From: Ruminococcus flavefaciens | GTDB taxonomy: Bacteria > Bacillota > Clostridia > Oscillospirales > Ruminococcaceae | DNA length: 64,000 bases | Direction: 5' to 3' | NCBI GenBank assembly: GCA_902760805.1 | Contig: CACWHY010000001.1 | Coordinates: 62,001-126,000 of the forward strand | Part shown: piece after piece, positions 3,163 to 21,738 of the stretch | Layout: every line of letters starts with the position of its first letter | Numbering within the stretch: the first letter of the stretch is position 1 | Translations under genes and position numbers: made by a program | The notes under the pieces: generated by a model | The model's input: only the letters and a program-made list of their open reading frames with translations | Databases searched by the model: none | What the model was told of the DNA's origin: nothing

Positions 3163-3186
3163 TTTCCGGAAAACTGAGGGATAAAT

Positions 3187-4017: not shown

Positions 4018-4018
4018 T

Positions 4019-5948: not shown

Positions 5949-5960
5949 GAATACAAAAAA

Positions 5961-5994
5961 GGCTGCGGAAGGCTATTCTGCGGCCATTTTTTTT
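5961..5994 (+). terminator. Terminator after cysA
   Basis: GGCTGCGGAA (5961-5970) pairs with TTCTGCGGCC (5976-5985), two G-U pairs, followed by ATTTTTTTT. Confidence 0.88.
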
Positions 5995-6030
5995 GCTTCA
6001 AAAAAGTGAGATCAAATTCTACAAAACATA

Positions 6031-6059
6031 TTGACTTGCTCGGAATTGTGTGATATAAT
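6031..6059 (+). promoter_or_regulatory. Promoter of hemA/siroheme operon
   Basis: TTGACT, 17-base spacer, TATAAT; hemA starts 28 bases downstream. Confidence 0.8.
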
Positions 6060-6087
6060 ATCAAAGTAAAAGAAGGACGGTGAGAGA

Positions 6088-7212: not shown

Positions 7213-7213
7213 A

Positions 7214-7825: not shown

Positions 7826-8694
7826 AGATCCGTATCGGAACAAGGGGCAGCAGGCTGGCTCTGATACAGGCTGAAATGGTGGAAAACGCCATAAGATCGG
7901 CATTTCCGGCTGCTGAGACCGAGCTGGTGAAGATCACAACAAAGGGCGACCGAGTGACTGACCGGCCCATCGACCAGATCGGCGGACGGGGAGTTTTCAT
8001 CGGCGAGATCGAGGCTGCGCTGGCTTCAGGTCAGATCGACGCTGCGGTCCACAGCGCCAAGGATATGGCCATTTCTCTGGCTCCGGGAACAGTCATCGGT
8101 GCCGTTCTGCCTAGGGCTTGTCCGCTGGATACGCTGGTCATTCGCCGTGAAATAGCGGAGAAGCTGTCTGCTGATCCGCTGGGGAAGTACCGTGTGGGCA
8201 CCAGCAGCAACCGCAGGAAAAATGCCGCTGCCAGGCTACTCCCGAACAGCGTTTTTGCCGATATTAGGGGGAATGTGGACACTCGCCTGCAAAAGCTCCA
8301 CAGCGGAGAGTACGACTGCATAATGCTGGCTCAGGCGGGATTGAGCCGACTTGGGATGGCTGAGGATCCACGTTTCGTCTTCCGCCGGCTGACCCCGGAG
8401 GAGTCCCTCCCAGCGCCCTGTCAGGGGATCATCGCAGTTCAGTCACGAACGGGAGAATTTGCCGAAATATTGGGAAAGATCACAGACCAGGCGGCTCTGA
8501 TCTGCTTTGAAACAGAGCGTGAGGTGCTAAGGCTGCTCAATGCCGGCTGCTCAACGCCCGTGGGAGCATTGGCGGAGCTTATAAACGGCGAGCTGCGGCT
8601 GTCGGTGACCCTGGATCAGCGAAGGCTGATTTCCGGCAGCGCTCCGGCGGATGAGAGGTTTGCCCTTGCGGAAAGGCTGGTGAGGCAGCTATGA
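7822..8694 (+). CDS. hemC: Hydroxymethylbilane synthase (porphobilinogen deaminase)
   Basis: 290-residue enzyme joining four porphobilinogens. Start ATG 7822 overlaps the previous stop and follows GGAGGTGGAGG. The protein begins with the canonical IRIGTRGSRLALIQA and has KGDRVTD, the substrate-binding SAKDMAISL, RRKNAAARLL-like arginines, and the cofactor-attachment cysteine Cys243 in AGCSTPVGA. Its stop overlaps the next start by four bases. Confidence 0.94.
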   Translation: MKIRIGTRGSRLALIQAEMVENAIRSAFPAAETELVKITTKGDRVTDRPIDQIGGRGVFIGEIEAALASGQIDAAVHSAKDMAISLAPGTVIGAVLPRACPLDTLVIRREIAEKLSADPLGKYRVGTSSNRRKNAAARLLPNSVFADIRGNVDTRLQKLHSGEYDCIMLAQAGLSRLGMAEDPRFVFRRLTPEESLPAPCQGIIAVQSRTGEFAEILGKITDQAALICFETEREVLRLLNAGCSTPVGALAELINGELRLSVTLDQRRLISGSAPADERFALAERLVRQL

Positions 8695-10154
8695 CGGGGA
8701 AGGTTTATTTGGTGGGAGCAGGCTGCGGCGGCCCGGAGCTTCTGACACTTCGTGGGAAGGAGCTTCTGGAGAGCTGCACGGCGGTGGCTTATGACGCACT
8801 GGCGGACCGGCGGATCCTTCGGTTTGTGCCGGAAAATTCCCGAAAAATAGCCGTTGGAAAGCGTTCGGGAGCCCACAGCGTTCCCCAGGAACAGATCAGC
8901 CGGCTGCTTGTGGAGCTGGCACTTTCCGGGGAAACTGTTGTGCGGCTGAAGGGCGGCGACCCCTTCGTTTTTGGCCGGAGCAGCGAGGAAATCAGCGCTC
9001 TTCGGGAGGCCGGGGTGCCTTTTGAGGTGGTGCCGGGGATCTCCTCCTGTATTGCGGTGCCGGAGCTGGCCGGGATCCCGGTGACCTCACGCCGAGTGAG
9101 CCGTGGCTTTCGGGTGATCACTGCCGCAACCGCCGAAGGTGAGCCGCTTTTTGAGCGATATGCGGCCACGGAGGAGACACTGGTCTTCCTTATGGGGCTG
9201 GCTAAGGTCGGGGAAATAGCTCAGGGGCTGATCCGTGGCGGAATGTCTCCCCAGACCCCGGCTGCGGTCATTTCCGAGGGAGCTTCTCCACGTCAGAAAA
9301 CCGTTCACGGCAGTCTTGACGACATTGCGGAAAAGGCGAAAAACAGCAGTTCTCCGGCAATCATCGTGGTGGGAGAAACTGCCGCTTTCGACCTTCGTGC
9401 AAAGGTTTTCACGGAGCTTGGAGGAGTTTCCGCAGCGGTGGTGGGAACGGAGAGCTTCACCTCTCGCACAGGTCTGCTCCTGGCAGAAAAAGGGGCAAAC
9501 GTCACTGAGCTGCCCATAGTGAAGATCACCGAAAGATCGGGCGGTGCCGGCCTTGACCGAGCCATTTCTCAGCTGAGCAGCTACAGCGCTCTGGCCTTTG
9601 TGAGCAGACACGGTGTGGAGCTGTTTTTCCGCAGAATGAAGGCGCTTCGGGCGGATCTGCGAAGCCTTGCGGGTGTGAAGATAGCCGCTGTTGGCAGCTC
9701 CACGGCAGCCGCCTTGGAGGAGCACGGCCTGATCCCGGATCTGGTGCCGGAGGAGTTCACCTCCGCCGCTCTTGGTGAGCGCCTTGCAGAAGAGCTTCCC
9801 AGGGGCAGCCGTGTACTGATACTGCGCAATGAGAACGGCTCGCCGGAGCTTGCAGAAAGGCTGACCTCTGCCGGGATCTTGGCTGAGGAGATCGCCCTCT
9901 ACGGCACCAAGGCCGAGGCTGACGGAGAGCTGCCGGAGGACTGCCGATTCGTGGCTTTCGGAAGCTCAGCAGGAGTCGGTGCATTTGCTGAAACCGGCTA
10001 TATTTTGCCGAAAAACGCCGCTGTGATATGCATAGGGGAGGAGACTGCTCAGGCTGCTCGAAAGCAGTTCGGAAGGGCAGTTGCTGCTCATCCTCACACA
10101 GCGGAGGGAATTGTTGAAACTATCATCAGGGAGGCCAAAAATGAAACGATTTAG
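8691..10154 (+). CDS. cobA-hemD: Uroporphyrinogen-III C-methyltransferase / uroporphyrinogen-III synthase fusion
   Basis: 487-residue bifunctional protein. Residues 1 to about 240 are the SAM-dependent methyltransferase: VYLVGAGCGGPELLTLRG, VRLKGGDPFVFGRSSEE, VPGISSCIAVPELAGIPVT, and LVFLMGL. Residues from about 245 form the HemD synthase fold (SYSALAFVSRHGVELFF, VGSSTAAALEEHG, RVLILRNENG, and a final VCIGEETAQAARK). Together they cyclise hydroxymethylbilane and methylate uroporphyrinogen III to precorrin-2. The fusion is common in clostridia. It ends 14 bases into hemB. Confidence 0.94.
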   Translation: MTGKVYLVGAGCGGPELLTLRGKELLESCTAVAYDALADRRILRFVPENSRKIAVGKRSGAHSVPQEQISRLLVELALSGETVVRLKGGDPFVFGRSSEEISALREAGVPFEVVPGISSCIAVPELAGIPVTSRRVSRGFRVITAATAEGEPLFERYAATEETLVFLMGLAKVGEIAQGLIRGGMSPQTPAAVISEGASPRQKTVHGSLDDIAEKAKNSSSPAIIVVGETAAFDLRAKVFTELGGVSAAVVGTESFTSRTGLLLAEKGANVTELPIVKITERSGGAGLDRAISQLSSYSALAFVSRHGVELFFRRMKALRADLRSLAGVKIAAVGSSTAAALEEHGLIPDLVPEEFTSAALGERLAEELPRGSRVLILRNENGSPELAERLTSAGILAEEIALYGTKAEADGELPEDCRFVAFGSSAGVGAFAETGYILPKNAAVICIGEETAQAARKQFGRAVAAHPHTAEGIVETIIREAKNETI

Positions 10155-11106
10155 AAGACTTCGTTCATCCGGTGCGCTGAGGGATCTTGTCAGGGAGACA
10201 AGGCTCACTGCCGGAGAGCTGATATACCCCATATTCGTGGAGGAGGGCATCGGTATCAAGCAGCCCGTGGACTCCATGCCCGGTATCTTTCGTTATTCTA
10301 TCGACAGGCTGGATGAGGAGCTGGACCGCATCGTTCAGGCCGGGATCGCCGGTGTCATGATCTTCGGGATCCCCAAGGTCAAGGACGAGCTGGCCACCTC
10401 AGCCTACGACGACAACGGTATCGCACAGCAGGCCGTCCGCCGCATAAAAAAGCGCTGTCCGCAGCTTCTTGCCGTTGCTGATGTGTGCCTTTGCGAGTAC
10501 ACCTCTCACGGCCATTGCGGAGTAGTCTGCGGCTGTGAGATCCTCAACGATGAGACTCTTCCTCTTCTGGGGAAAATGTCCGTAAGTCTGGCAAAGGCCG
10601 GGGCAGACATCATCGCTCCCTCCGACATGATGGACGGAAGAGTGGCAGCCATAAGGCAGTCACTGGACGAGGCCGGCTTCCTGAACACTCCGATAATGGC
10701 CTACAGCGCAAAGTTCGCATCCGGCTATTATTCGCCGTTTAGGGACGCTGCGGACTCAGCCCCGGGTTTCGGCGACAGGCGCTCTTACCAAATGGACTGC
10801 GCCAACGTCCGTGAGGCTCTGCTGGAGATCGAGGAGGACATTGCGGAGGGAGCTGACATCGTTATGGTCAAACCTGCGCTGGCTTATCTGGACGTGGTGA
10901 GAGCTGCCCGAGACCGCTTCGATGCGCCGATCGCTGCCTATAACGTGAGCGGAGAATACTCCATGGTGAAGGCCGCAGCTGAGCGTGGCTGGATCGACGA
11001 AAAGCGCATAGTTCTGGAAAATCTCACGTCTATCAAGCGTGCCGGAGCCGGGATAATCATCACCTATCACGCACTTGACGCCGCAAAATGGCTGGAGGAA
11101 ACATGA
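10141..11106 (+). CDS. hemB: Delta-aminolevulinic acid dehydratase (porphobilinogen synthase)
   Basis: 321-residue enzyme condensing two aminolevulinates. It shows the zinc-binding cysteines in DVCLCEYTSHGHCGVV, the Schiff-base region around SAKFASGYYSPFRDAA and MVKPALAYLDVV, and the C-terminal NVSGEYSMVKAAA. ATG 10141 has GGGAGG 7 bases upstream and matches the usual N-terminus (RFRRLRSSGALRDLVRET). It overlaps cobA-hemD by 14 bases and hemL by four. Confidence 0.95.
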   Translation: MKRFRRLRSSGALRDLVRETRLTAGELIYPIFVEEGIGIKQPVDSMPGIFRYSIDRLDEELDRIVQAGIAGVMIFGIPKVKDELATSAYDDNGIAQQAVRRIKKRCPQLLAVADVCLCEYTSHGHCGVVCGCEILNDETLPLLGKMSVSLAKAGADIIAPSDMMDGRVAAIRQSLDEAGFLNTPIMAYSAKFASGYYSPFRDAADSAPGFGDRRSYQMDCANVREALLEIEEDIAEGADIVMVKPALAYLDVVRAARDRFDAPIAAYNVSGEYSMVKAAAERGWIDEKRIVLENLTSIKRAGAGIIITYHALDAAKWLEET

Positions 11107-12362
11107 AAACTGATCGTTCAAAAAAATTATACGAGAGAGCCTGTCAGCTCATGCCCGGGGGAGTGAACAGCCCTGTTCGAGCCTTTCGCAGTGTTGGCAG
11201 ATCCCCTCTGTTCATCGATCACGCTGAGGGCAGCCGGATCATTGATGCTGACGGCAACATCTTCATCGACTACGTTTGCTCCTGGGGACCGGATATCCTG
11301 GGACACGGCTGCCCGGCTGTGATCCGGGCGGTGCAGGAGCGTCTGGCTCACGGCTTGACCTTCGGTGCCTGTCATGAGGGCGAGATCCTTCTTGCGGAGA
11401 AGATCCGGGATCATTTTCCCTCAATGGAGCTGATCCGCCTTGTGAGCTCCGGCACTGAGGCTGTTATGAGCGCGGTCCGGGCGGCAAGAGGCTATACAGG
11501 CCGTGACTTCATCGTGAAATTCGAGGGCTGCTACCACGGCCACTCAGACGGACTTCTGGTGAAGGGCGGCTCTGGTCTGCTGACGGGGGCTTTGCCGGGA
11601 AGCGCCGGTGTGCCGTCAGGCTACACGGAGGCCACCCTCCTTGCCAGGTACAATGACCTTTCCTCAGTGGAGGAGCTTTTTGCTCGCTGCGGAAGCCGGA
11701 TAGCCTGCGTCATCGTGGAGCCCTGCGCTGCGAATATGGGCGTAGTTCCGCCGAAAAAAGGCTTTCTGGAAGGCCTTCGCAGTATCACTGAGAAGCACGG
11801 AGCTCTGCTGATCTTCGACGAGGTTATCACAGGATTTCGGCTGAGTATCGGCGGAGCCCAGCAGCTCTACGGCGTGAAGCCTGATTTGACAACTCTGGGC
11901 AAGATCGTAGGCGGAGGAATGCCCCTTGCTGCATACGGCGGACGCCGTGAGATCATGGAGACCGTTGCTCCGCTGGGGTCGGTCTACCAGGCAGGAACTC
12001 TTTCCGGAAACCCCATAGCCACCGCAGCCGGAGCAGCTGCTATCTCTGAGCTGGAAAAGCGTCCGGAGCTCTACACTGAGCTGGAAATAAAGACTGCCAA
12101 GCTGGAAGACGCCGCACTTTCCGCCGGCCTTAACGTGAACAGAGCCGGCTCGCTGATGACGGTATTCTTCACAAATAAGAAGGTCACAGACTACTCCTCA
12201 GCAACGGCCTGCGACACCGAGGCGTACTCCCGCTATTTCGGTTATCTTCTGGAAAACGGCATCTACACAGCCCCCTCACAGTTCGAGGCCATGTTTGTTT
12301 CGGCAGCCCACACCGAGGAAGAGATCGAACAGACCTGCCAACTGATAAAAGCCTATAAATAG
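11103..12362 (+). CDS. hemL: Glutamate-1-semialdehyde 2,1-aminomutase
   Basis: 419-residue PLP enzyme making 5-aminolevulinate. Family markers: LMPGGVNSPVRAF at the start, SSGTEAVMSAVRAARG, the FEGCYHGHSDGLLVKGGSG block, IFDEVITGFR and the PLP lysine Lys267 in TLGKIVGGGMP. ATG 11103 is chosen because GGAGG lies 4-5 bases upstream; ATG 11088 would add five residues with no ribosome site. Last gene of the operon, which supplies uroporphyrinogen III and siroheme; no hemE is present, so the flux seems aimed at siroheme rather than heme. Confidence 0.95.
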   Translation: MKTDRSKKLYERACQLMPGGVNSPVRAFRSVGRSPLFIDHAEGSRIIDADGNIFIDYVCSWGPDILGHGCPAVIRAVQERLAHGLTFGACHEGEILLAEKIRDHFPSMELIRLVSSGTEAVMSAVRAARGYTGRDFIVKFEGCYHGHSDGLLVKGGSGLLTGALPGSAGVPSGYTEATLLARYNDLSSVEELFARCGSRIACVIVEPCAANMGVVPPKKGFLEGLRSITEKHGALLIFDEVITGFRLSIGGAQQLYGVKPDLTTLGKIVGGGMPLAAYGGRREIMETVAPLGSVYQAGTLSGNPIATAAGAAAISELEKRPELYTELEIKTAKLEDAALSAGLNVNRAGSLMTVFFTNKKVTDYSSATACDTEAYSRYFGYLLENGIYTAPSQFEAMFVSAAHTEEEIEQTCQLIKAYK

Positions 12363-12365
12363 CGA

Positions 12366-12394
12366 AAAAGGTACTCCCGAGGGAGTACCTTTTC
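12366..12394. terminator. Bidirectional terminator between hemL and the Rrf2 gene
   Basis: GGTACTCCC (12370-12378) and GGGAGTACC (12381-12389) form a stem flanked by A5 and T4, so it can serve both converging genes. Confidence 0.82.
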
Positions 12395-12844
12395 TCATAT
12401 GTAGTACATTGGCTCAGAGATGCTGTCCTCCACTAGGCCGTTGTATTTTCCGGCTAGGTCGGAGAGTGAGATCTTGTGAGCATGGTCTCTCAGCAGCGCC
12501 GACATTCGGCTCCAGAGAGTGTCGTCAAGGGCCTCTGTCACAAGGGGGTCCCATTTTTCCTCAAAGCTGACCTGGCCGAGCACGCTGCTGTCAAGAGCGT
12601 CGATTATCTCAGCCAAAGTGATCTTTGAGGCAGAACGGGAGAGCGTGTAGCCGCCCTTGGCGCCCTTCACACTTCTGATGATCCCTGCGTGTCGCAGCAG
12701 CGGCAGGATCTGTTCCAGGTATTTTGCGGAAATGCTTTGCCTCTGGGAAATGTTGACCACCTTGACAACGTTTTCAGTTGGAGCGTTCACGCATATATCC
12801 ACCAGGGCGATTATACCACATTCGACCTTAGAGGAGATCTTCAT
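12395..12844 (-). CDS. Rrf2-family transcriptional regulator (CymR-like)
   Basis: 149-residue winged-helix repressor. The N-terminus MKISSKVECGIIALVDI, the recognition segment ISAKYLEQILPLLRHAGIIRS and the wing VKGAKGGYTLSR are characteristic of Rrf2 proteins. No cluster of three cysteines is present (only two Cys, outside the IscR position), so it is not an Fe-S IscR; CymR of Bacillus, which controls sulfur genes, is the closest functional model. The start is 12844, with AAAGGA nine bases upstream, not the ATG ten codons earlier. It lies between the siroheme and sulfur operons and divergent from metY, so it probably controls them (inference). Confidence 0.88.
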   Translation of the reverse strand: MKISSKVECGIIALVDICVNAPTENVVKVVNISQRQSISAKYLEQILPLLRHAGIIRSVKGAKGGYTLSRSASKITLAEIIDALDSSVLGQVSFEEKWDPLVTEALDDTLWSRMSALLRDHAHKISLSDLAGKYNGLVEDSISEPMYYI

Positions 12845-12885
12845 ATTCTTCAGTCCTTTCATTATATAATACAAAACCTATATAC

Positions 12886-12896
12886 ATACTAAGTAT
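12886..12896. promoter_or_regulatory. Candidate Rrf2 operator overlapping its own promoter
   Basis: Perfect palindrome ATACT-A-AGTAT overlapping the -10 box of the Rrf2 gene. It resembles ATACTATGTAT at 1986-1996 and the metY promoter spacer, which suggests autoregulation. Confidence 0.45.
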
Positions 12897-12920
12897 AGCA
12901 TGATCTGATGAAAAAATCAA
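12892..12920 (-). promoter_or_regulatory. Promoter of the Rrf2 gene
   Basis: On the minus strand TTGATT (12920-12915), 17-base spacer, TATACT (12897-12892). Confidence 0.7.
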
Positions 12921-13005
12921 GAGTTTTTCATTTGTGGGAAATGATGAATTTATCTAAATCATACTAAACAGATATGTAAAATAGGCTGAATATCAGAATA
13001 ACCTA

Positions 13006-13034
13006 TTGACTTACTATGAAAAGTAGGCTATAAT
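13006..13034 (+). promoter_or_regulatory. Promoter of metY-sulfite reductase-apr-cysDN operon with internal operator
   Basis: TTGACT (13006-13011), 17-base spacer, TATAAT (13029-13034). The spacer holds TACT(N6)AGTA (13012-13025), and AATAGG (12980-12985) is inverted as CCTATT (13002-13007) over the -35 box. Both would place a repressor on the promoter. Confidence 0.75.
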
Positions 13035-13063
13035 TGTAAAAAACAAATGAAAGCGGTGTTCAC

Positions 13064-14299
13064 ATGGGATTTAACACAATCCTGCTCCATGACGCCCCCG
13101 GCGGAGACCGGCATACCGGCGCAACTCTCACGCCTGTTTATCAGGTGAGCGCATTTGCCTATGATTCGGCGGAAAAGCTGGAGCAGGTCTTCGGCGGCAG
13201 AGCTCCTGGCTTTGCTTATACAAGGATCGGCAACCCAACAGTCGATGCCTTCGAGAAGCGTATGGCGGCTTTGGAGGGCGGTGTTGGAGCAGTTGCCTGT
13301 TCCTCGGGAATGGCCGCAGTGACAATGACTCTGCTGACCATGCTTCGCTCCGGGGACGAGATCATTGCCGGATCCGGGCTCTTCGGCGGAACGATCGACC
13401 TCTTCGGCGACCTTGAAGCACTTGGCATCACCGTTCGTTATGCTGAGACCGTGGATCCGCAGACTGTGGAGAGCCTGATAACTGACCGTACAAGGGCAGT
13501 TTTTGCGGAGCTGATCAGCAACCCAAAGCTCAGCGTTGTGGACGTTGAGGCGGTGTCGAAAACCTGTCAGGAGCACGGACTTCCCCTGATCATTGACAGC
13601 ACAACGGCTACTCCCTATCTGGTGCAGCCTTTGAAGCTGGGAGCGGACATTGTGGTCCACTCGGGATCCAAGTACATAAACGGCGGCGGAAATTCCCTCA
13701 GCGGCGTGATCGTTGACGGAGGCACCTTCCGCTTTGACCCGGAGCGCTACCCTGGCTTTGCGGAGTACAAAAAGTTCGGCAGCCGTGCCTTCCTTGCAAA
13801 ACTGAGAAACGGCATTTGGCGGAATTCCGGTGCCTGTCTCTCACCGTTCAATGCATATCTCAATCAGGTGGGCATCGAGACATTGGGACTTCGAATGGAG
13901 CGCCTTTGCAGCAATGCACTTGCCCTTGCGAAAGCTCTTCGTGAACTGGGTCTGGAAGTCAGATACCCCGGCCTTCCCGATGATCCGGACTTCCATCTTG
14001 TGGAGAGACAGCTTGGCGGAAAGGGCGGCGCAATCCTAACTGTGAGGGCAGGCAGCCGAGAGCGTGCCTTCCGCCTGATAAACAGCCTGAAATACGCTCT
14101 CATAGCAACAAATATCGGTGACGTGAGAACTCTCGTGATCCACCCGGCCAGCACGATCTACCTCCACAGCACAAAGGAGCAAATGGAAAGCGCCGGAGTT
14201 TTCGACGACACTATCAGGATAAGTATCGGTATTGAGGACCCGGAGGATCTGATCGGTGATTTTCGTCAGGCGTTCCTCCAGTCAGGAAAGGAGAATTGA
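13064..14299 (+). CDS. metY: O-acetylhomoserine sulfhydrylase (MetY-type PLP enzyme)
   Basis: 411-residue Cys/Met-metabolism PLP enzyme. It shows GATLTPVYQVSAFAYDSAEKLE, YTRIGNPTVDAFEKRMAALEGG, ACSSGMAAVTMTLL, FGGTIDLF, and the PLP lysine Lys203 in HSGSKYINGGG. These fit O-acetylhomoserine aminocarboxypropyltransferase, which makes homocysteine directly from a sulfide source. It is first in the operon with a ThiS-like carrier, an E1-like activator and a JAMM protease, the arrangement described for thiocarboxylate-dependent homocysteine synthesis in Wolinella succinogenes. The sulfur donor may therefore be a carrier protein rather than free sulfide. The downstream sulfite reductase starts one base after its stop. 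Confidence 0.9.
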   Translation: MGFNTILLHDAPGGDRHTGATLTPVYQVSAFAYDSAEKLEQVFGGRAPGFAYTRIGNPTVDAFEKRMAALEGGVGAVACSSGMAAVTMTLLTMLRSGDEIIAGSGLFGGTIDLFGDLEALGITVRYAETVDPQTVESLITDRTRAVFAELISNPKLSVVDVEAVSKTCQEHGLPLIIDSTTATPYLVQPLKLGADIVVHSGSKYINGGGNSLSGVIVDGGTFRFDPERYPGFAEYKKFGSRAFLAKLRNGIWRNSGACLSPFNAYLNQVGIETLGLRMERLCSNALALAKALRELGLEVRYPGLPDDPDFHLVERQLGGKGGAILTVRAGSRERAFRLINSLKYALIATNIGDVRTLVIHPASTIYLHSTKEQMESAGVFDDTIRISIGIEDPEDLIGDFRQAFLQSGKEN

Positions 14300-14300
14300 C

Positions 14301-15164
14301 ATGGCAACTGATTACGCAGCCCTCAAAAAGGGCGGATTTATGCGGCAGAAACAGAAAAACTGTTTCTCCCTGAGACTTAGAGTGGTGGGCGGAAACGTCA
14401 CCGCAGGCCAGCTTGCAAAGATCGCTGAGGTGGCGGATGAGTTCGGCGACGGCCACGTTCATCTGACCTCACGCCAGAGCATCGAGATCCCCTTCATCAA
14501 GCTGGATCAGATCGAAGAGGTGAAGGCTGCTCTTGGTGAGGGCGGTGTTGAGCCGGGAGTTTGCGGCCCAAGAGTCCGCACAGTTACGGCCTGTCAGGGC
14601 AGTGCGATCTGTCCCAGCGGATGTATCGACACCTACTCTCTGGCCAAGGAGCTTGACGACAGGTATTTCGCCAGAGAGCTCCCTCACAAGTTCAAGTTCG
14701 GCATAACCGGCTGTCAGAACAACTGCCTGAAATCCGAGGAAAATGACCTTGGCATAAAGGGCGGTATACGGGTGAGCTGGAGGGAGAGCGACTGCATTGG
14801 CTGCGGCGTCTGTGAGAAGGCCTGCCGCACAGGTGCGATCACTATCACTGACGGAAAGGTCAGCGTGACGGCTGACAAGTGCAACTTCTGCGGAAGGTGC
14901 GTCAAGTCCTGCCCCACCGATGCTTGGAATCAGGAGAATGGCTACATAGTCAGCTTCGGCGGACTTTTCGGCAACCACATCGCAAAGGGCGAGCCGGTGA
15001 TCCCTTTCATTGCAGACCACGACACTCTCATGAGGGTCTGTGATGCGGCGATACAGTTCTTTGACGACAATGCCCTCCCCGGTGAGCGCTTCAAGTTCAC
15101 CATTGACCGAGTTGGCAGGGAGAGCTTCAAGAATACTATCATGGAGGCGTATAACAATGGCTGA
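14301..15164 (+). CDS. Siroheme sulfite reductase with ferredoxin domain
   Basis: 287-residue protein. Residues 15-80 form a nitrite/sulfite reductase ferredoxin-like half-domain (GGNVTAGQLAKIAEVADEFG, HLTSRQSIEIPF). The siroheme/[4Fe-4S] ligands are in TACQGSAICPSGCIDT and TGCQNNCLKSEENDLGIKGG. Two more [4Fe-4S] sites follow (CIGCGVCEKACRTGAI and CNFCGRCVKSCPTDAW). This compact single-subunit layout is like AsrC/Fsr-type reductases and unlike CysI. It should reduce sulfite to sulfide with electrons entering through the ferredoxin part. ATG 14301 follows AAAGGAG; the siroheme operon just upstream would supply its cofactor. It overlaps the next gene by 8 bases. Confidence 0.88.
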   Translation: MATDYAALKKGGFMRQKQKNCFSLRLRVVGGNVTAGQLAKIAEVADEFGDGHVHLTSRQSIEIPFIKLDQIEEVKAALGEGGVEPGVCGPRVRTVTACQGSAICPSGCIDTYSLAKELDDRYFARELPHKFKFGITGCQNNCLKSEENDLGIKGGIRVSWRESDCIGCGVCEKACRTGAITITDGKVSVTADKCNFCGRCVKSCPTDAWNQENGYIVSFGGLFGNHIAKGEPVIPFIADHDTLMRVCDAAIQFFDDNALPGERFKFTIDRVGRESFKNTIMEAYNNG

Positions 15165-15402
15165 TTTCCAGATCACAGACAGTATAGACATCACAGACGC
15201 AGTTTGCCCGGTCACATTTGTTCGTGCGAAGGTGGCTTTGGAGGAGCTTGAGGTGGGAGACATCCTCTCGATCAGGCTCAACGACGGCGAGCCTGTGCAG
15301 AACGTTCCCCGCAGCATCAAGGAGGAGGGACACAAGGTCCTTCGCCTCACCGACAACGGCGACGGTACCTACGAGCTTATCGTTCGGAAGGAGGCCGAGT
15401 AA
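15157..15402 (+). CDS. TusA/SirA-family sulfur carrier protein
   Basis: 81-residue protein of the TusA/SirA/YedF family. The expected persulfide cysteine is Cys17 in DAVCPVTFVRAK, and LNDGEPVQNVPRSIKEEGH is family wording. The usual CPxP motif reads CPVT here. It overlaps the sulfite reductase by 8 bases and its stop overlaps the thioredoxin start (TAATG), so it is made with both. A role in handing reduced sulfur from the reductase to the carrier system is inference. Confidence 0.85.
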   Translation: MADFQITDSIDITDAVCPVTFVRAKVALEELEVGDILSIRLNDGEPVQNVPRSIKEEGHKVLRLTDNGDGTYELIVRKEAE

Positions 15403-15722
15403 TGGCTGAGAGGATCAGTGCGGCAGATTTTGACGAGAAGGTGCTCCGGTCACAGATCCCCGTTGCGGCGGACTTCTATTCGGACAGCTGTATACCCTGC
15501 AAGCGCCTTTCGCCGGTCATTTCACGGCTGGAGGAGGAGTTCTCAGGCAGGGTGAAGTTCGTCAAGATCAACGTGAATTTCGACTCAGAGCTGGCAGAGC
15601 AGTATGACGTTATGGCAGCTCCTACAGTAGTATTTTTCCGGGACGGGAATGAGACCGGACGCACAAGAGGCGCTGTCACTCAGGAGACACTGACCGGCGC
15701 TATCGAAGAGCTTTTGTTTTAA
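15402..15722 (+). CDS. Thioredoxin-like protein (CIPC active site)
   Basis: 106-residue single thioredoxin fold. Active site SCIPCKR replaces the classical WCGPC; the cis-proline region is intact (MAAPTVVFFRDGNETGR). No signal peptide, so cytosolic. It lies between the TusA-like protein and the ThiS-like carrier and may serve as reductant for AprAB or sulfite reductase, or resolve persulfides. A second, classical thioredoxin is encoded at 61282. Confidence 0.9.
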   Translation: MAERISAADFDEKVLRSQIPVAADFYSDSCIPCKRLSPVISRLEEEFSGRVKFVKINVNFDSELAEQYDVMAAPTVVFFRDGNETGRTRGAVTQETLTGAIEELLF

Positions 15723-15734
15723 GGAGAGATATAT

Positions 15735-15953
15735 ATGCAGATCACAGTTGCAGGAGTTAAAAAGCAGGTGGCTGAGGGACTTACCGTTGCTCAGCTTGTC
15801 ATCGACGAAAAGGTGGAAACTCCCCAGTACGTCACAGTCACTATCAACGATGAGTTCGTGGAGAGCGGACAGTTCGAGGCAACAGTCCTCAATGAAGGCG
15901 ACAGCGTGGAATTCCTCTATTTTATGGGAGGCGGAAGCTATGGCGCTTACTAA
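15735..15953 (+). CDS. ThiS/MoaD-like sulfur carrier with C-terminal extension (HcyS-type)
   Basis: 72-residue beta-grasp protein. It starts MQITVAGVKK and has the ThiS core GLTVAQLVID, VTVTINDEFV, LNEGDSVEFLYFMGGG. Unlike mature ThiS or MoaD the glycines are not terminal: five residues (SYGAY) follow GGG. A carrier must end in Gly-Gly to be adenylated, so the tail must be removed first; the JAMM protease two genes downstream is the obvious enzyme. The sulfur-assimilation neighbours and absence of thiG argue for HcyS (homocysteine synthesis) rather than thiamine. Its gene overlaps the E1-like gene by 14 bases. Confidence 0.87.
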   Translation: MQITVAGVKKQVAEGLTVAQLVIDEKVETPQYVTVTINDEFVESGQFEATVLNEGDSVEFLYFMGGGSYGAY

Positions 15954-16752
15954 TGAGCAGATCGAAAGGTACTCACGTCACATTATCCTGAAGGAGGTAG
16001 GCGTCAAGGGACAGAAGAAGCTCCTTGGTGCGAAGGTGCTGATCATCGGAGCAGGCGGCCTGGGAGCTCCTGCCGGGATGTACCTTGCAGCCGCCGGAGT
16101 CGGAACTATCGGTATCGCTGACGCAGACGAGGTGGATCTGTCCAACCTCCAGCGCCAGATCATCCACCAGACCGCCGACATCGGCAAGCCCAAGGTGGAG
16201 TCTGCAAAGGAGACCATGCAGGCCATAAATCCTGACGTGAACGTTATCACCTACCATGATTTCATCACAAGTGAGAACATCATGGAGATCATCAAGGACT
16301 ACGATTTCATAATCGACGGAACAGACAATTTTCCGGCGAAATTCCTCATAAACGACGCCTGCGTCATGGCGAAGAAGCCCTTTTCTCATGCGGGGATAAT
16401 CCGTTTCAAGGGTCAGCTTATGACCTACGTTCCGGGGCAGGGTCCATGCTATCGCTGCGTGTTCCGTGATCCCCCTCCGAAGGACGCCGTTCCCACCTGT
16501 AAGCAGGCCGGAGTCATCGGCGCAATGGGCGGAGTTATCGGCAGTCTTCAGGCGATGGAGGCTGTGAAGTACATCGTTGGAGTTGGTGAGCTGCTGACAG
16601 GCTGGCTGCTGACCTACGATGCGCTGACAATGGAGTTCCGCAAGGTGAAGCTCCCCACAGACACTCACAGCTGTGCGGTCTGCGGCGACCATCCAACTAT
16701 CACGGAGCTCATCGACTACGAGCAGGCTGAATGTGAGGGTACCGGTCTATGA
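15940..16752 (+). CDS. E1-like adenylyltransferase activating the sulfur carrier (MoeB/ThiF/HesA family, HcyF-type)
   Basis: 270-residue ATP-dependent activating enzyme. It opens with QIERYSRHIILKEVG and has the nucleotide site IIGAGGLGAPAGMYLAAAGVG, DEVDLSNLQRQIIH, IDGTDNFPAKFLIND, and two zinc CxxC pairs (CYRCVF and CAVCGD). It should adenylate the C-terminal glycine of the carrier so that sulfide can form a thiocarboxylate. ATG 15940 follows GGGAGG; earlier in-frame ATG positions fall in the carrier gene's shadow. ATGA overlap with the protease. Confidence 0.9.
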   Translation: MALTNEQIERYSRHIILKEVGVKGQKKLLGAKVLIIGAGGLGAPAGMYLAAAGVGTIGIADADEVDLSNLQRQIIHQTADIGKPKVESAKETMQAINPDVNVITYHDFITSENIMEIIKDYDFIIDGTDNFPAKFLINDACVMAKKPFSHAGIIRFKGQLMTYVPGQGPCYRCVFRDPPPKDAVPTCKQAGVIGAMGGVIGSLQAMEAVKYIVGVGELLTGWLLTYDALTMEFRKVKLPTDTHSCAVCGDHPTITELIDYEQAECEGTGL

Positions 16753-17156
16753 TCACGCTGAAAAAAGAAGACTACGACAGGATCCTTGCCCACGCAAAGT
16801 CTGAGGCTCCAGTGGAGGCCTGCGGACTTATCGGCGGAGTGAAAAACGGCGATGATAAGGAGATCCGGAAGGTGTATATCCTGACGAATACAGATCACGC
16901 CGAGGAGCACTTCACCCTTGACCCCAAGGAGCAGCTCAGCGCAGTGAAGGATATGCGTTCAGAGGGGCTGATCCCTCTGGGGAACTGGCACTCCCACCCC
17001 GTTTCACCCTCAAGGCCCTCTCAGGAGGACATAAGGCTGGCCTACGACAGCTCTGCCAGCTATCTGATCCTGTCACTTATGGAGGAGGAGCCGGTGCTGA
17101 ATTCCTTCCACATCGAGGAGGGAGTTTCCCAGAAGGAAGAGCTGGTCATCATTTAA
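16749..17156 (+). CDS. JAMM/MPN+ metalloprotease (Mec+/HcyD-type)
   Basis: 135-residue M67-family zinc peptidase. The JAMM motif is complete: Glu in EACGLIGG, then NWHSHPVSPSRPSQEDIRLAYD (HxH, Ser, Asp). Such enzymes trim residues after Gly-Gly in ThiS-like carriers or cut a carrier-amino acid bond to release product. Here both uses are plausible: removing the SYGAY tail and releasing homocysteine from the carrier. The four-base overlap with the activator gene supports joint function. Confidence 0.9.
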   Translation: MITLKKEDYDRILAHAKSEAPVEACGLIGGVKNGDDKEIRKVYILTNTDHAEEHFTLDPKEQLSAVKDMRSEGLIPLGNWHSHPVSPSRPSQEDIRLAYDSSASYLILSLMEEEPVLNSFHIEEGVSQKEELVII

Positions 17157-17170
17157 GAAGAGAGATTTTT

Positions 17171-18859
17171 ATGGAAACAGTGAGACTTAACACCGATATC
17201 CTGGTGATCGGAGGCGGAACAGCAGGCTGCTGGGCGGCGATCACGATTGCAGAGCAGTCCGGCCTTGACGTTCTGATCTGCGAAAAGGCTGGCATAAAGC
17301 GCAGCGGCTGTCTAGCGGCGGGAGTGAACGCTCTGAACGCCTATATCACTGAGGGGAAAACTCCTCAGGATTACGCTGATTACTGCGAAAAAGACGCCGC
17401 CGGTATCGTCCGGGGAGACCTTCTGCTGACCATGTCTGAGCGCCTCAACAGCGTCACTGAGAAGCTGGAGCGTCTTGGACTGGTCATTTTGAAAGACGAG
17501 CAGGGAAGGTACGCTGCCCGTGGAGACCGTAACATCAAGATCAACGGCGAGAACATCAAGCCCTTGATCGCTCAGGAGGTGCGCCGCCACAGCCAGATCT
17601 CTGTGCTGGAACACGTTGACATCACCGACCTTGAGACCTCCTCCGGCAGGGCATCAGGCGCCTACGGCTTCGGCATCGAGGACGGTACGTTTTACGCAAT
17701 CTCCGCAAAGGCCGTAATCATCGCAACAGGCGGTGCAGCCGGGCTCTACCGGCCGAACAACCCCGGCTTCTCCAAGCATAAGATGTGGTATCCGCCATTC
17801 AATACAGGAGCAGGCTACGCAATGGGCATACTTCACGGGGCGGAGATGACCACCTTCGAGATGAGATTTATCGCTCTGCGCTGCAAGGACACGATCGCTC
17901 CTACGGGAACGCTTGCACAGGGCGCAGGGGCAAAACAGATCAACGCTTTGGGTGAGGTCTATGAGCAAAAGTACGGCCTGACCACCTCTGAGCGAGTTTA
18001 CGGCACTGTCATGGAAAACCTGGCTGGGCGAGGTCCATGCTACCTTCGCACAAAGGGCATCAGCCGTGAGAAGGCTCAGTCTCTGGAGAAAGCATACTTG
18101 AACATGGCGCCCTCCCAGACTCTGAAATGGCTGGAGAGCGGCGTTCCTGTGGAGGAGCAGGATGTGGAGATCGAAGGCACTGAGCCCTACATCGTGGGCG
18201 GCCACACTGCCAGCGGTTTCTGGGTGGACACTGCAAGGATGACCACTATCCCGGGACTATTCGCCGCAGGTGATGTTTCCGGCGGAGCTCCTCAGAAGTA
18301 CGTTACCGGCGCTCTTGCTGAGGGCGAGATCGCAGGTGAGTCCGCTGTGAGATACGCAGAAAAGCTGATCCCGGAGCCTCTTCCGGAGGAGTCTGTTCAG
18401 GCTCACATCAACGAGACCGAGGGCTTTCTCAGCGGCAGGAAGAGCCTCTACACAGCTCCTCAGCTGGAGGAGGCCATGCAGACCGTCATGGACAAATACG
18501 CCGGCGGGATCGGGGCGAGCTATCGCTTCACAGAGGCCCAGCTGGACATCGCAGACCGCCGTATCGCTCAGCTTTTTGAGCTCTCAGGCCAGCTCTCTGC
18601 GGATAGCCCCCGTGAGCTGCTGAGGATCTATGAGCTGAGAGAGCGCCTTGTGGTCTGCCGGAGCGTTATCGCTCACCTGAGGGCTCGTCAGGAGACCCGC
18701 TGGCACTGCTTTGCGGAAAACCTTGACTGGCCTGAGAGAAATGACCGGGATTGGCGGAAATACGTCAATTCACGGCTGGAAAACGGCAAGATCCGTGTGA
18801 TCTTCCGTGAGCTTATCAGCGGAGGGGAGACCTATGAGCATAGCGATAAACAGGGATAA
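17171..18859 (+). CDS. aprA: Adenylylsulfate reductase alpha subunit (FAD)
   Basis: 562-residue flavoprotein. N-terminal FAD site TDILVIGGGTAGCWAAITIAEQ, then EKAGIKRSGCLAAGVNALNAYI, the AprA wording for the substrate cleft; ATGGAAGLYRPNNPG and GLFAAGDVSGGAPQKYVTGALAEG complete the FAD domain. It reduces adenosine 5'-phosphosulfate to sulfite and AMP with AprB. It is shorter than the roughly 620-670 residues of sulfate reducers. The neighbours (cysDN, single-subunit sulfite reductase) and lack of qmo and dsrAB point to assimilation. AprB starts 26 bases before its end. Confidence 0.9.
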   Translation: METVRLNTDILVIGGGTAGCWAAITIAEQSGLDVLICEKAGIKRSGCLAAGVNALNAYITEGKTPQDYADYCEKDAAGIVRGDLLLTMSERLNSVTEKLERLGLVILKDEQGRYAARGDRNIKINGENIKPLIAQEVRRHSQISVLEHVDITDLETSSGRASGAYGFGIEDGTFYAISAKAVIIATGGAAGLYRPNNPGFSKHKMWYPPFNTGAGYAMGILHGAEMTTFEMRFIALRCKDTIAPTGTLAQGAGAKQINALGEVYEQKYGLTTSERVYGTVMENLAGRGPCYLRTKGISREKAQSLEKAYLNMAPSQTLKWLESGVPVEEQDVEIEGTEPYIVGGHTASGFWVDTARMTTIPGLFAAGDVSGGAPQKYVTGALAEGEIAGESAVRYAEKLIPEPLPEESVQAHINETEGFLSGRKSLYTAPQLEEAMQTVMDKYAGGIGASYRFTEAQLDIADRRIAQLFELSGQLSADSPRELLRIYELRERLVVCRSVIAHLRARQETRWHCFAENLDWPERNDRDWRKYVNSRLENGKIRVIFRELISGGETYEHSDKQG

Positions 18860-19145
18860 GTGCATCGGCTGCGGAAGGTGCACACAGGCCTGTCCCGGCT
18901 CGCTTATCGGAATGAGCCAGGGTAAGGCGGTCATGCGCTACCCGGAGGAATGCTGGGGTTGTACGGCCTGTCTGAAGGAGTGTCCCGTCCATGCAGTGAG
19001 GCTGTTTTTGGGAGCCGACATCGGCGGCGGAGGAACTCTCCTGCACACCGAGCGCCAGGGCGAGATCCTGCGCTGGATCTTTGAGCGTCCCGACGGCACA
19101 GTACAGGAAATTCCCATAGATACACGAGAATCAAACAAGTATTAG
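18834..19145 (+). CDS. aprB: Adenylylsulfate reductase beta subunit (ferredoxin-like)
   Basis: 103-residue Fe-S protein with two [4Fe-4S] motifs: [15 protein letters not shown] and [16 protein letters not shown]. The tail ([21 protein letters not shown]) matches the AprB C-terminal extension that wraps the alpha subunit, though shortened. ATG 18834 follows GGAGGGGAG; the earlier in-frame ATG at 18807 has no such site. It passes electrons to the FAD of AprA; the physiological donor is not encoded here. Confidence 0.9.
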
Positions 19146-19156
19146 GAGATGATGTT

Positions 19157-20056
19157 GTGGCAGATCTTTCACACCTCGACCAGCTTGAAGCCGAGGCAAT
19201 CTATATAATCAGAGAGGTGGCTGCGGAATGTGAGCGCCCCGTAATGCTGTACTCTATCGGCAAGGACAGCTCAGTTATGCTGCACCTTGCAATGAAGGCA
19301 TTTTACCCTGAAAAACCGCCGTTTCCCTTCCTCCATGTGAACACCACATGGAAGTTCAAGGAGATGATCGAGTTCCGTGACAAAACTGCTGCACGGCTGG
19401 GTATCGAGATGCTGGAATACATCAACGAGGACGGCGTGAAGCAGGGGATAAACCCCTTCGACCACGGTGCCGCCTACACGGATATAATGAAGACTCAGGC
19501 TCTCAAGCAGGCTCTGGACAAATACGGCTTCACGGCTGCATTCGGCGGCGGACGCAGGGACGAGGAGAAGTCCCGTGCCAAGGAGAGGATCTTCTCCTTC
19601 CGCAGCGCCTCACACGCTTGGGATCCCAAAAATCAGCGTCCGGAGATGTGGAAGCTCTACAATACCCGCATCAACAAAGGTGAGAGCATAAGAGTTTTCC
19701 CCATTTCCAACTGGACAGAGAAGGACATCTGGCAGTATATCCGCCGGGAAAACATCGACATCGTTCCGCTGTATTTCGCCGCAGAGCGCCCTGTTGTGGA
19801 GCGTGACGGCAACATCATCATGGTGGACGATGAACGCTTCCGCCTGAGAGAGGGCGAGGTGCCCCAGATGAAATCTGTGCGTTTCAGAACTCTTGGCTGC
19901 TATCCGCTGACCGGCGGGATAGAGTCCACTGCGAACACTCTTGATGAGATCATTGCAGAAACTCTCAGCAGCGTCGAGTCCGAGCGTACATCAAGAGTCA
20001 TCGACAATGAGGCTGCCGGAAGCATGGAAAGAAGAAAGAGGGAGGGATATTTCTGA
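19157..20056 (+). CDS. cysD: Sulfate adenylyltransferase subunit 2
   Basis: 299-residue PP-loop ATPase making adenylyl sulfate (APS) from sulfate and ATP with CysN. Motifs: [18 protein letters not shown] (PP-loop), [51 protein letters not shown] and [12 protein letters not shown]. The start is GTG at 19157 behind AGGAGATGATGTT. TGATG overlap with cysN. Confidence 0.95.
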
Positions 20057-21738
20057 TGAAGGGACTGCTCAAATTCATAACCTGCGGCAGCGTAGATGAC
20101 GGAAAATCCACGCTTATCGGACATATCCTCTACGACTCAAAGCTGCTTTATACAGATCAGGAGCAGGCTCTGCGGCTGGACAGCAGAGTCGGCAGCAGGA
20201 ACGGCGAGATCGACTACTCCCTGCTGCTTGACGGCCTTATGGCTGAGCGTGAGCAGGGCATAACCATAGACGTTGCCTATCGCTATTTCACCACGGATAA
20301 GCGCAGCTTCATCGTTGCGGACACTCCCGGACATGAGGAATACACACGAAATATGGCTGTTGGCGCTTCTTTTGCGGAGCTTGCCGTGATCCTGGTGGAC
20401 GCTTCTCAGGGAGTGCTTGTGCAGACTCGCCGCCACGCAAGGATCTGCTCCCTCATGGGTATCAGGTACTTCGTTTTTGCGGTGAACAAAATGGATCTGG
20501 TCAATTTCAGTGAAGAGCGCTTTGAGGAGATCTCTAGGCAGATCGCCGAGCTCACAGAGGAACTCTCCCTCAGTAACACAACAGTCATCCCCCTGTCGGC
20601 AACTGACGGCGACAATGTTACCACACTGTCTCAGCGCACTCCTTGGTACAAGGGAACTTCGCTGCTGGAGTATCTGGAGGAGGTTGAGATCTCACCGGAA
20701 AATGCCGGAAAGGGCTTCTATATGCCGGTGCAGAGAGTCAGCCGCCCCGACCGCACATTCCGTGGCTCTCAGGGACAGATCGAGGCAGGGAGCGTTTCCG
20801 TGGGCGACGAGGTGAGAGTCCTCCCCAGCGGAGAGACCGCCTCTGTAAAGACTATCCTGGCCGCCGGAAAGGAGACCGAAACTGCCTTCGCCGGTCAGCC
20901 GGTAACTATCGTCCTTGACCGTGAGGTGGACGTTTCCCGAGGCTGCGTCATAGAAAAGGACAGCGGTCTTGCTCCCTACAGAGAGCTGAGCGTTTCGCTG
21001 CTGTGGATGGACGATGCGCCCCTTTCCCCCGGCAAGGAATACCTCATAAAGCTGGGCACCAAGCAGATCCCCGGCGTTCTCACAAAGATCTGCTACGCCG
21101 TTGACATAAACACCGGCAAGCATATCTCGGCGGAGAGCCTTTCCAAAAACGGCATCGCTCTGTGCGAGATCGTTCTCAGCGAGGCCATTACTGCCGATAC
21201 ATTTGCCCTTCACAGGACAATGGGCGAGCTGATCCTCATCGACAGGGTGAGCCATGCAACCTCAGCCTGCGGAGTAGTTCAGGCTCTCAGCGGTCAGGCT
21301 CGCACAGGCAATGCGGCTTCCTTCGTTTACGGCGGAGTTTCCGCAAGAGGAGATGTTTTCGAGGAGTTCTTCTACGACACCGAGACCCTCAGCGTCTTCC
21401 GCTATCAGCCTGTGACCTCCACCTACACTGTGGGCGACACTATCCCCGTAAAGGGCGAGAGCTACCGCTATCCCGACAGCTTTGACGTTATCGTCCTCAG
21501 AGACAGAGCTGCGGTGAAGGTCCGTGACAGAGTGGTGGAGGCTGTACTTCCTCTGGAGGAGTATGAATTCACCGGCCTTCCTCTGGTGAACGGACGAGGC
21601 TTTGAGATCTTTGCGGACTCGCCCGAGACCTTCCGCAGATTTCTCACAGAATATGACGACGCCGGCGACCGTGAGCGCCCTGAGTTCTTCCGCAAGTGGG
21701 TGCGTTTCGACACCTATCGGAAGGTAGTTATCAGATAA
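20056..21738 (+). CDS. cysN: Sulfate adenylyltransferase subunit 1 (GTPase)
   Basis: 560-residue EF-Tu-like GTPase driving APS synthesis. G1 GSVDDGKSTLIG, DxxG in DTPGHEEYTRNMA, NKMD and the translation-factor beta-barrels (MPVQRVSRPDRTFRGSQGQI) are intact. It is about 85 residues longer than E. coli CysN (475), the extra part being C-terminal; it is not a CysC APS-kinase domain, as no second P-loop is seen. The absence of APS kinase agrees with direct APS reduction by AprAB. Last gene of the operon. Confidence 0.95.
   Translation: MKGLLKFITCGSVDDGKSTLIGHILYDSKLLYTDQEQALRLDSRVGSRNGEIDYSLLLDGLMAEREQGITIDVAYRYFTTDKRSFIVADTPGHEEYTRNMAVGASFAELAVILVDASQGVLVQTRRHARICSLMGIRYFVFAVNKMDLVNFSEERFEEISRQIAELTEELSLSNTTVIPLSATDGDNVTTLSQRTPWYKGTSLLEYLEEVEISPENAGKGFYMPVQRVSRPDRTFRGSQGQIEAGSVSVGDEVRVLPSGETASVKTILAAGKETETAFAGQPVTIVLDREVDVSRGCVIEKDSGLAPYRELSVSLLWMDDAPLSPGKEYLIKLGTKQIPGVLTKICYAVDINTGKHISAESLSKNGIALCEIVLSEAITADTFALHRTMGELILIDRVSHATSACGVVQALSGQARTGNAASFVYGGVSARGDVFEEFFYDTETLSVFRYQPVTSTYTVGDTIPVKGESYRYPDSFDVIVLRDRAAVKVRDRVVEAVLPLEEYEFTGLPLVNGRGFEIFADSPETFRRFLTEYDDAGDRERPEFFRKWVRFDTYRKVVIR

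Follow-up and report, generated by a model that had tools for sequence, protein, structure and literature searches.

A Ruminococcus flavefaciens gene island predicted to join AprAB-type reduction of adenosine phosphosulfate to a protein-thiocarboxylate route to homocysteine

In a 64,000-nucleotide (nt) window of a Ruminococcus flavefaciens contig (by "the window" we mean this whole stretch; the genome is a 44-contig draft, 96.5% complete) we find a compact block of eleven genes that, with the genes upstream of it, probably constitutes an assimilatory sulfate pathway ending in homocysteine. Judged from its sequence, this pathway would reduce adenosine 5'-phosphosulfate (APS) with an AprAB-type enzyme, relay the sulfur through TusA and present it as the thiocarboxylate of a small carrier protein, HcyS, to a MetY-type sulfhydrylase. 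All eleven open reading frames (ORFs) lie on the plus strand inside 13064-21738, in the order MetY, siroheme sulfite reductase (SiR), TusA, thioredoxin, HcyS, HcyF, HcyD, AprA, AprB, CysD and CysN (Table 1). They are as tightly packed as a first-pass annotation of this DNA had described, the successive junctions calculated from the coordinates being +1, -8, -1, +12, -14, -4, +14, -26, +11 and -1 nt (gaps positive, overlaps negative) and the largest intergenic gap 14 nt. The identities of ten of the eleven genes come from Pfam and NCBIfam scans; CysD, outside those two scans, is the sole PF01507 match in the genome. These assignments bear out the sulfate-to-homocysteine gene content proposed in that annotation, whose count of eleven genes also fits, although its text left TusA and the thioredoxin unnamed.

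The pathway that we propose builds on the observed gene content, conserved catalytic residues, carrier tails, MetY loop class and fusions in relatives, and on a genome in which neither APS kinase nor CysH was found. Sulfate would enter through Sbp-CysTWA and be activated to APS by CysDN, and a short AprAB-type enzyme with flavin adenine dinucleotide (FAD) and [4Fe-4S] clusters would convert APS, rather than 3'-phosphoadenosine 5'-phosphosulfate (PAPS), to sulfite and adenosine monophosphate; the preference for APS is a prediction discussed below. The small siroheme SiR would then reduce sulfite and hand the sulfur to the adjoining TusA. TusA would most likely carry it as a persulfide on cysteine, and the operon thioredoxin would serve as reductant in this step; we infer both the persulfide and the part played by thioredoxin. 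The remaining chemistry of HcyD, HcyF and MetY would follow what is reportedly seen in Wolinella. HcyD would trim the HcyS tail after the glycines and HcyF would adenylate the freed C-terminus, whereupon TusA-borne sulfur would convert the adenylate to a thiocarboxylate. MetY would add this thiocarboxylate to O-acetylhomoserine, and HcyD would finally free homocysteine and recycle HcyS.

The carrier module has the features expected of such a route, and both the tailed ThiS-like carrier and the JAMM protease named in the first-pass annotation hold up. HcyS ends in FMGGG-SYGAY, with a tail after its glycines. Sixty frames with a GGG motif were read from related loci (given below by L number, genomes by G number), 58 of them HcyS-type and two ThiS-like; at least one residue follows GGG in all 58 HcyS-type carriers, and the sequence of the tail is free. 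The two ThiS-like frames are a protein in L057 with a one-residue tail and the second gene in L143, which has none. The tail is thus not a perfect marker of HcyS, given the L057 protein and several weaker ThiS/MoaD matches without a stop. L143 (G611) itself carries two ThiS-like genes in one locus, a tailed one with GGG-AR and another that stops at GGG. HcyS and HcyF form one ORF in three loci (L154, L212 and L213), where the activating enzyme (E1) begins shortly after the carrier's GGG, and therefore the carrier C-terminus there could be exposed only by proteolysis. HcyF of the window (270 amino acids, aa) matches only the ThiF domain and has no rhodanese domain; the cysteine of its PTCKQAG motif and its two CxxC pairs are kept in 30 aligned rows. 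The metal-site motif of HcyD, HSH-x(7)-S-x(2)-D, is intact and is kept in 31 rows.

The operon MetY is one of three MetY-type genes in the genome, the two paralogues being 38% and 37% identical to it. It scores under the TIGR01326 cut-off (408 versus 495 bits), whereas both paralogues are over it (620 and 596). It also lacks about 10 residues some 30 positions past the presumed pyridoxal phosphate lysine, K203 (placed by motif). We counted this loop segment in 92 MetY-type proteins, of which 41 are linked to HcyS (the window's included), 47 are unlinked and four lie beside SiR, HcyF or HcyD only. Every one of the 41 linked proteins has a segment of 12-19 residues. The unlinked proteins have 27-34 residues in 38 of 47 cases, 0-1 in eight and 19 in one; this last copy, L187, is on a short contig of a genome that has HcyS on another contig. 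The four partly linked copies are divided between 18 residues (two) and 28-29 (two). Some entries are duplicates (L044/L112 are identical in AprA and MetY, L165/L166 in AprA, and L212/L233 are the same MetY gene); without them there are 40 linked and 46 unlinked copies, 37 of the latter with 27-34 residues. By alignment count the segment is 17 residues long in the Wolinella MetY (PDB 3ri6), an enzyme reported to use a protein thiocarboxylate. Among the best 60 of 104 PDB matches, judged by alignment length, 8sf5, 7kb0, 8wko, 4kam, 8erb/8eqw, 8ovh, 2ctz and 4oc9 have 12-28 additional residues here relative to the operon MetY, 2cb1 has about 5 and 3ri6 none; the loop was checked residue by residue for 8sf5, 7kb0, 8wko, 4kam, 8erb, 8eqw and 3ri6. 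By loop class, a proxy for activity read from sequence, the operon MetY would be of the carrier-linked kind, in agreement with the first-pass annotation, whereas its whole-length similarity is greater to free-sulfide enzymes. This loop may decide between carrier and free sulfide.

Sulfur transfer between proteins is also suggested by the genes that follow metY. The best PDB match of SiR is the C-terminal half of the F420-dependent sulfite reductase, and its CX5C and CX3C cysteines are kept in 44 rows. TusA, whose gene overlaps that of SiR by 8 nt in the window, keeps its CP motif in 28 rows, and the thioredoxin keeps C-x-P-C in 26. At 11 loci (L104, L154, L187, L189, L190, L195, L198, L200, L212, L213 and L217) SiR and a C-terminal TusA form a single ORF that retains the TusA cysteine, L187 being only partial at a contig edge. 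Together with the HcyS-HcyF fusions, these SiR-TusA ORFs argue for protein-to-protein sulfur transfer. Within 9 kb of HcyS, SiR is found in 56 of 58 loci, HcyD in 55, TusA in 53, MetY in 42 and thioredoxin in 29; several of the misses are contig ends, and AprA was the bait by which many of these loci had been collected. In the consulted parts of Iyer et al. 2006 (PMC1779556), SirA/TusA is proposed to take the part of a missing rhodanese, and according to a 2026 paper (PMC13188885, likewise consulted in part) four assimilatory sulfite reductases yield zero-valent sulfur directly. Because the fusions, this proposal and the zero-valent product point the same way, we favour transfer from SiR to TusA to HcyS. 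The earlier idea that sulfur is kept on proteins thus gains ground from the fusions. If true, a TusA relay would explain how the output of a sulfite reductase reaches a thiocarboxylate without free sulfide.

Related loci show the same genes in two modules. Scanning genome contigs with AprA yielded 420 encoding stretches; the 80 best serve here as named loci, and many of them end at contig ends. AprA, AprB, CysD and CysN occur together in 75 of the 80; in L062 about 2 kb of additional spacing separates them, and CysN, or CysD and CysN, is missing in L005, L015, L025 and L069. The second module, MetY-SiR-TusA-thioredoxin-HcyS-HcyF-HcyD, is present with all seven genes in 23 of the 80 stretches, HcyS preceding AprA in 13 and coming after it in 10. 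HcyS is found in 28 of the 80, a 29th match (L057) being the ThiS-like protein mentioned above. The record titles name Ruminococcus-like organisms, Roseburia, Blautia, Lachnospira, Clostridium, Fibrobacter and others, many of them from rumen or gut, and the closest relative among the best 80, a Ruminococcus sp., comes from roe deer and has an AprA that is 91% identical. For co-occurrence we took 398 Bacillota genomes, evenly drawn and including the window's own. AprA-short is over the NF005331 cut-off in 65 genomes, and HcyS is present in 43 at a line of at least 65.4 bits with no internal stop, a line set by eye after the match list had been seen. Just under it are two matches with stops at 65.0-65.2 bits (G300 and a second copy in G285) and one without a stop in a genome that has AprA (G356, 63.4 bits); several weaker ThiS/MoaD matches read on without a stop. 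AprA-short is present in 32 of the 43 HcyS genomes versus 33 of the 355 others (Fisher p 4.5e-20, uncorrected for relatedness), so the association anticipated in the first-pass annotation is seen in this sample. One HcyS genome without AprA (locus L216) has near CysDN a reductase that we take to be CysH-like from its length and motif. A class-wide AprA search at a loose E-value put 10 of 243 matches over the cut-off, flavoprotein paralogues swamping the search.

The AprAB of the operon is not of the dissimilatory type, to which the first-pass annotation had likened it. AprA-short is well over the curated cut-off of NF005331, adenylyl-sulfate reductase subunit alpha (893 versus 557 bits), and its closest PDB match is the alpha subunit of 8a8o, the PAPS reductase from Methanothermococcus (604 bits, compared with 279 for Archaeoglobus fulgidus AprA). 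AprB matches the beta subunit, 8a8o_C, over residues 1-96 of 103 with 83 bits; a repeat polyferredoxin gets 93 by summed repeats. Against the dissimilatory models the two subunits stay under the cut-offs (AprA 308 versus 642 for TIGR02061, AprB 40.5 versus 135.7 for TIGR02060), and with the closest match an assimilatory PAPS reductase we rejected a dissimilatory enzyme. Genes of this short type in metagenomes could be counted as dissimilatory sulfate reduction though they are assimilatory.

In the consulted parts of Jespersen and Wagner 2023 (PMC10322725), use of PAPS by the Methanothermococcus enzyme is put down to Lys120, Arg121 and Ser122, and Gln145 of the A. fulgidus enzyme would clash with the 3'-phosphate. 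The corresponding loop of the window AprA is D119-R120-N121, with only the arginine shared. Thus neither the K120-R121-S122 loop nor the APS kinase that goes with the Methanothermococcus type is seen here: in the 96.5%-complete genome no APS kinase was found, the best match, of 22 bits, being confined to 42 profile positions in a P-loop protein of 306 aa, and no CysH was found either, CysD being the only protein of that family. From the asparagine in place of Ser122 we predict that the window AprAB uses APS, a specificity that rests on this structural argument and on a genome in which no APS kinase was found.

We then compared loop and kinase across genomes, taking over 180 bits as a full-length APS kinase match. 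Such a match was present in 7 of 51 AprA-short genomes (41 of the 80 named loci plus 10 with G handles) and in 35 of 64 further ones, the first-look candidates having been scored in part in some genomes of both surveys (for example 59 of 71). Nearly all AprA copies of the window's clade (57 of 62) are in genomes without one. Among 119 AprA copies, those with Ser, Ala or Gly at the third loop position have the kinase in 34 of 35 cases, the remaining Ser copy (L144) being from a genome that is 63% complete, whereas it is absent for 72 of the 84 copies with Asn or Asp. A distance of at most 7 kb between kinase and AprA was recorded for 25 of the 35 versus 2 of the 84, the window and the 41 named loci having been entered as non-adjacent by default; when the five named loci from genomes with a kinase were rechecked, their stretches contained no CysC. 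Of the three loop residues, it is only the third that goes with the kinase. Lysine alone does not, and the whole KRS triplet was rejected as a marker of PAPS use by KRN copies without APS kinase (G616, G458, G482, G575, G596 and G316). A further AprA-short group, 13 of the 119 copies (L167, L171, L173, L176-L182 and L203-L205), has the loop xWD, with no CysDN or HcyS matches nearby.

Several observations weigh against the scheme and open room for other explanations. Over its whole length the operon MetY is closer to the free-sulfide enzyme 8sf5 (358 bits) than to the Wolinella MetY (305), canonical MetYs are said to work with free sulfide, and HcyS-HcyF-HcyD modules occur without AprAB, some also without MetY in the fetched stretch (L213-L217). 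In five of the 58 HcyS loci (two at contig ends, three from one genus) no TusA was detected nearby, and thioredoxin turned up in no more than half of the 58. The operon MetY might then use free sulfide from SiR, with HcyS, HcyF and HcyD thiolating something else and merely co-regulated. We consider this unlikely in view of the intermediate short loop seen in all 41 carrier-linked MetYs and in the Wolinella enzyme, a loop that among the other copies read is confined to two beside SiR and to L187, whose short contig belongs to an HcyS genome, and in view of the proximity of MetY to HcyS in 42 of 58 loci. Free sulfide nevertheless probably also yields homocysteine in these cells, given the two paralogues here and the canonical MetY present in each of the 32 HcyS genomes tested (7 named ones and 25 from the 43 of the draw), and the suggestion that the operon would be the cell's only homocysteine route is doubtful. 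The same carrier chemistry could instead deliver cysteine, with O-acetylserine or O-phosphoserine as the acceptor: O-acetylhomoserine and O-acetylserine sulfhydrylases form one family, the operon MetY is under the TIGR01326 cut-off, and two other MetYs are at hand for homocysteine. This we hold to be distinctly unlikely, as the genome has two 308-aa CysK-like proteins (PALP family, named by eye) and the Wolinella MetY, of the same loop class, is cited with O-acetylhomoserine sulfhydrylase activity (PMC6595629, in the part consulted). Finally, HcyS is over the cut-off of the ThiS model TIGR01683 (58 versus 37 bits), which would suit a role in thiazole or molybdopterin synthesis, the outcome named in the first-pass annotation as its refutation. 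HcyS does not end at its glycines, though, nor is it linked to ThiG or ThiH; a separate ThiS-ThiF-ThiG-ThiH-ThiE-like cluster (named by eye) has a ThiS that ends exactly at GGG, and the Pfam ThiS family, MoaD included, has no third match in the genome. We rejected this role on these grounds and regard it as highly improbable.

The other doubt concerns the substrate of AprAB, which could be PAPS as in Methanothermococcus. The closest solved enzyme is that PAPS reductase, the arginine of the loop is shared, and three Asn-type copies have a linked APS kinase: in L145 and L199 it is adjacent, and in L070 (2569-5655), an NRN AprA operon outside the 119-copy count (which took 41 of the 80 named loci, L070 not being one of them), a CysC-like kinase stands behind CysN, about 4 kb from AprA. 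Ten further Asn/Asp copies have a kinase elsewhere in the genome. We nevertheless judge PAPS reduction improbable, and reject it for the window genome, given that no APS kinase was found there, that D and N replace K120 and S122, and that the residue classes divide with the kinase as described. The correlation itself is suggestive and not proven, because the third-position residue changes only about four times on the AprA tree (FastTree, unrooted, long branches flagged) and three independent pairs on supported branches gave a mean of 1.7 concordant and 0.3 contrary, which is not significant. One loop position of AprA may still tell APS from PAPS use.

Taken together, the first-pass reading is partly supported, and the reading that we prefer remains sulfate assimilation to homocysteine through APS and a protein thiocarboxylate. 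Because canonical MetY is present in all HcyS genomes tested, the carrier route is likely to be a sulfate-linked, low-sulfide route beside direct sulfhydrylation. More tentatively, and with less confidence than in the pathway as a whole, sulfur may stay protein-bound all the way from SiR to homocysteine (on TusA, with thioredoxin resolving the disulfide, then on the HcyS thiocarboxylate and the loop-deleted MetY), and a Ser/Asn loop change may have gone along with gain or loss of APS kinase, in either direction on the unrooted tree. If so, gut Clostridia would carry an APS-specific form of an enzyme that is a PAPS reductase in relatives and in a methanogen.

Table 1. Features of the sulfate-assimilation island in the window
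Feature	Coordinates	Strand	Evidence
Sbp (sulfate-binding protein)	2107-3162	+	NCBIfam over cut-off, 451 bits
CysT	3187-4017	+	NCBIfam over cut-off, 366 bits
CysW	4019-4900	+	NCBIfam over cut-off, 337 bits
CysA	4890-5948	+	TIGR00968-type, over cut-off, 353 bits
Siroheme pathway: HemA, CysG-N (Met8-like), HemC, CobA-HemD, HemB, HemL	6088-12362	+	NCBIfam over cut-off
Regulator, divergent from operon	12395-12874	-	ORF
MetY-type pyridoxal phosphate sulfhydrylase, HcyS-linked short-loop kind	13064-14299	+	Cys_Met_Meta_PP 363 bits
SiR, 287-aa siroheme/4Fe-4S sulfite reductase with inserted ferredoxin domain	14301-15164	+	NIR_SIR 102, NIR_SIR_ferr 77, Fer4
TusA/SirA sulfurtransferase	15157-15402	+	Pfam TusA 72 bits
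Operon thioredoxin (CIPC)	15402-15722	+	Pfam 79 bits
HcyS, ThiS-like carrier	15735-15953	+	ThiS 43 bits; TIGR01683 58 bits
HcyF, MoeB/ThiF-like E1	15940-16752	+	Pfam ThiF 291 bits, residues 11-246 of 270
HcyD, JAMM/JAB metalloprotease	16749-17156	+	Prok-JAB 83 bits
AprA-short, FAD subunit	17171-18859	+	NF005331 893 bits; PDB 8a8o 604 bits
AprB-short, ferredoxin subunit, eight cluster cysteines, 103 aa	18834-19145	+	PDB 8a8o_C 83 bits
CysD, ATP sulfurylase catalytic subunit	19157-20056	+	PF01507 193 bits
CysN, GTPase subunit	20056-21738	+	TIGR02034 532 bits over residues 5-408

The same-strand block continues upstream of metY to 2107 with siroheme pathway genes and, before them, a sulfate ABC transporter, and 2107-21738 is one sulfate-assimilation island broken only by the divergent regulator. 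The siroheme genes, which we infer to supply the SiR cofactor, are also near AprA genes in several relatives (L014, L016 and L021, for example); the HemD half of CobA-HemD is under its NCBIfam cut-off (82 versus 246). The regulator, which we take to belong to the Rrf2 family, has a relative on the opposite strand upstream of metY in L002, L003 and L012 (tblastn). Between regulator and metY are two repeats that may be operator sites, one inverted (11 nt, 12908-12931) and one direct and imperfect (15 nt, 12973-13029). The C-terminal domain of CysN (about residues 410-560, window 21283-21735, about 130 residues) is predicted by AlphaFold with a mean local confidence (pLDDT) of 87 and a template-modelling score (pTM) of 0.80, and had no Pfam match and no PDB fold match (best Foldseek E 0.85). 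It is present in 25 of 28 CysN C-termini chosen for alignment, the other three differing there in sequence. Apart from the operon thioredoxin, the window carries at 61276-62493 a general thioredoxin, with WCGPCK read by eye, and behind it a thioredoxin-reductase-like ORF.

The systems most like this island are a protein-thiocarboxylate methionine pathway, a neighbourhood type and two AprAB enzymes. The first, with HcyS, HcyF, HcyD and MetY, was reportedly worked out in Wolinella succinogenes by Krishnamoorthy and Begley and by Tran et al. (PDB 3ri6), both in 2011. It shares with the window the tailed carrier, the JAMM protease, the E1 and the short-loop MetY. The window operon also holds TusA, thioredoxin and AprAB-type APS reduction, of which the last two may or may not set it apart from the Wolinella cluster. 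As consulted in part, PMC5764234, PMC11568248 and PMC6595629 cite the Wolinella pathway, and the citing literature identifies 3ri6 as the W. succinogenes MetY. Linked sulfate-reduction genes are a further likeness, as the consulted parts of Iyer, Burroughs and Aravind 2006 (PMC1779556) indicate. Those parts describe a neighbourhood type 4e, found in Wolinella and in several low-GC Gram-positives, that includes genes for sulfate activation and sulfite reduction, and a ThiS fused to sulfite reductase in two actinobacteria. The window has the E1 without C-terminal rhodanese (HcyF) and the SirA/TusA gene (at 15157) of that type, and its module fits type 4e and probably works like the Wolinella pathway. 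The claim that the combination is a new kind of joining therefore has to be given up for the neighbourhood as such. The published type 4e list, however, as consulted, has PAPS reductase and adenylylsulfate kinase, whereas the window has AprAB, no kinase being found in its genome, and differs also by the operon thioredoxin; the SiR-TusA and HcyS-HcyF fusions of relatives are absent from the consulted parts of PMC1779556. Neither the AprAB-HcyS combination nor SiR-TusA fusions turned up in a literature search (titles and starts of abstracts, subscription journals mostly uncovered), which is not proof of absence.

Of the two AprAB enzymes, the closest solved relative is the PAPS reductase of Methanothermococcus thermolithotrophicus (PMC10322725, in the parts consulted), likewise in an assimilatory context and of nearly equal size (alpha 571 versus 562 aa and beta 104 versus 103 aa, the window second), from which the window enzyme differs by D119/N121 in place of K120/S122 and by a genome in which no APS kinase was found. 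The dissimilatory AprAB of A. fulgidus (1jnr/2fja) shares FAD, two [4Fe-4S] clusters and remote homology over nearly the whole alpha subunit, but the window enzyme is shorter, scores under the dissimilatory cut-offs and has DRN instead of QWQ. Overall, the neighbourhood type has been known since 2006 and the Wolinella thiocarboxylate route since 2011, while the AprAB branch without a kinase, the thioredoxin and the fusions in relatives are what this island and its relatives appear to add to them.

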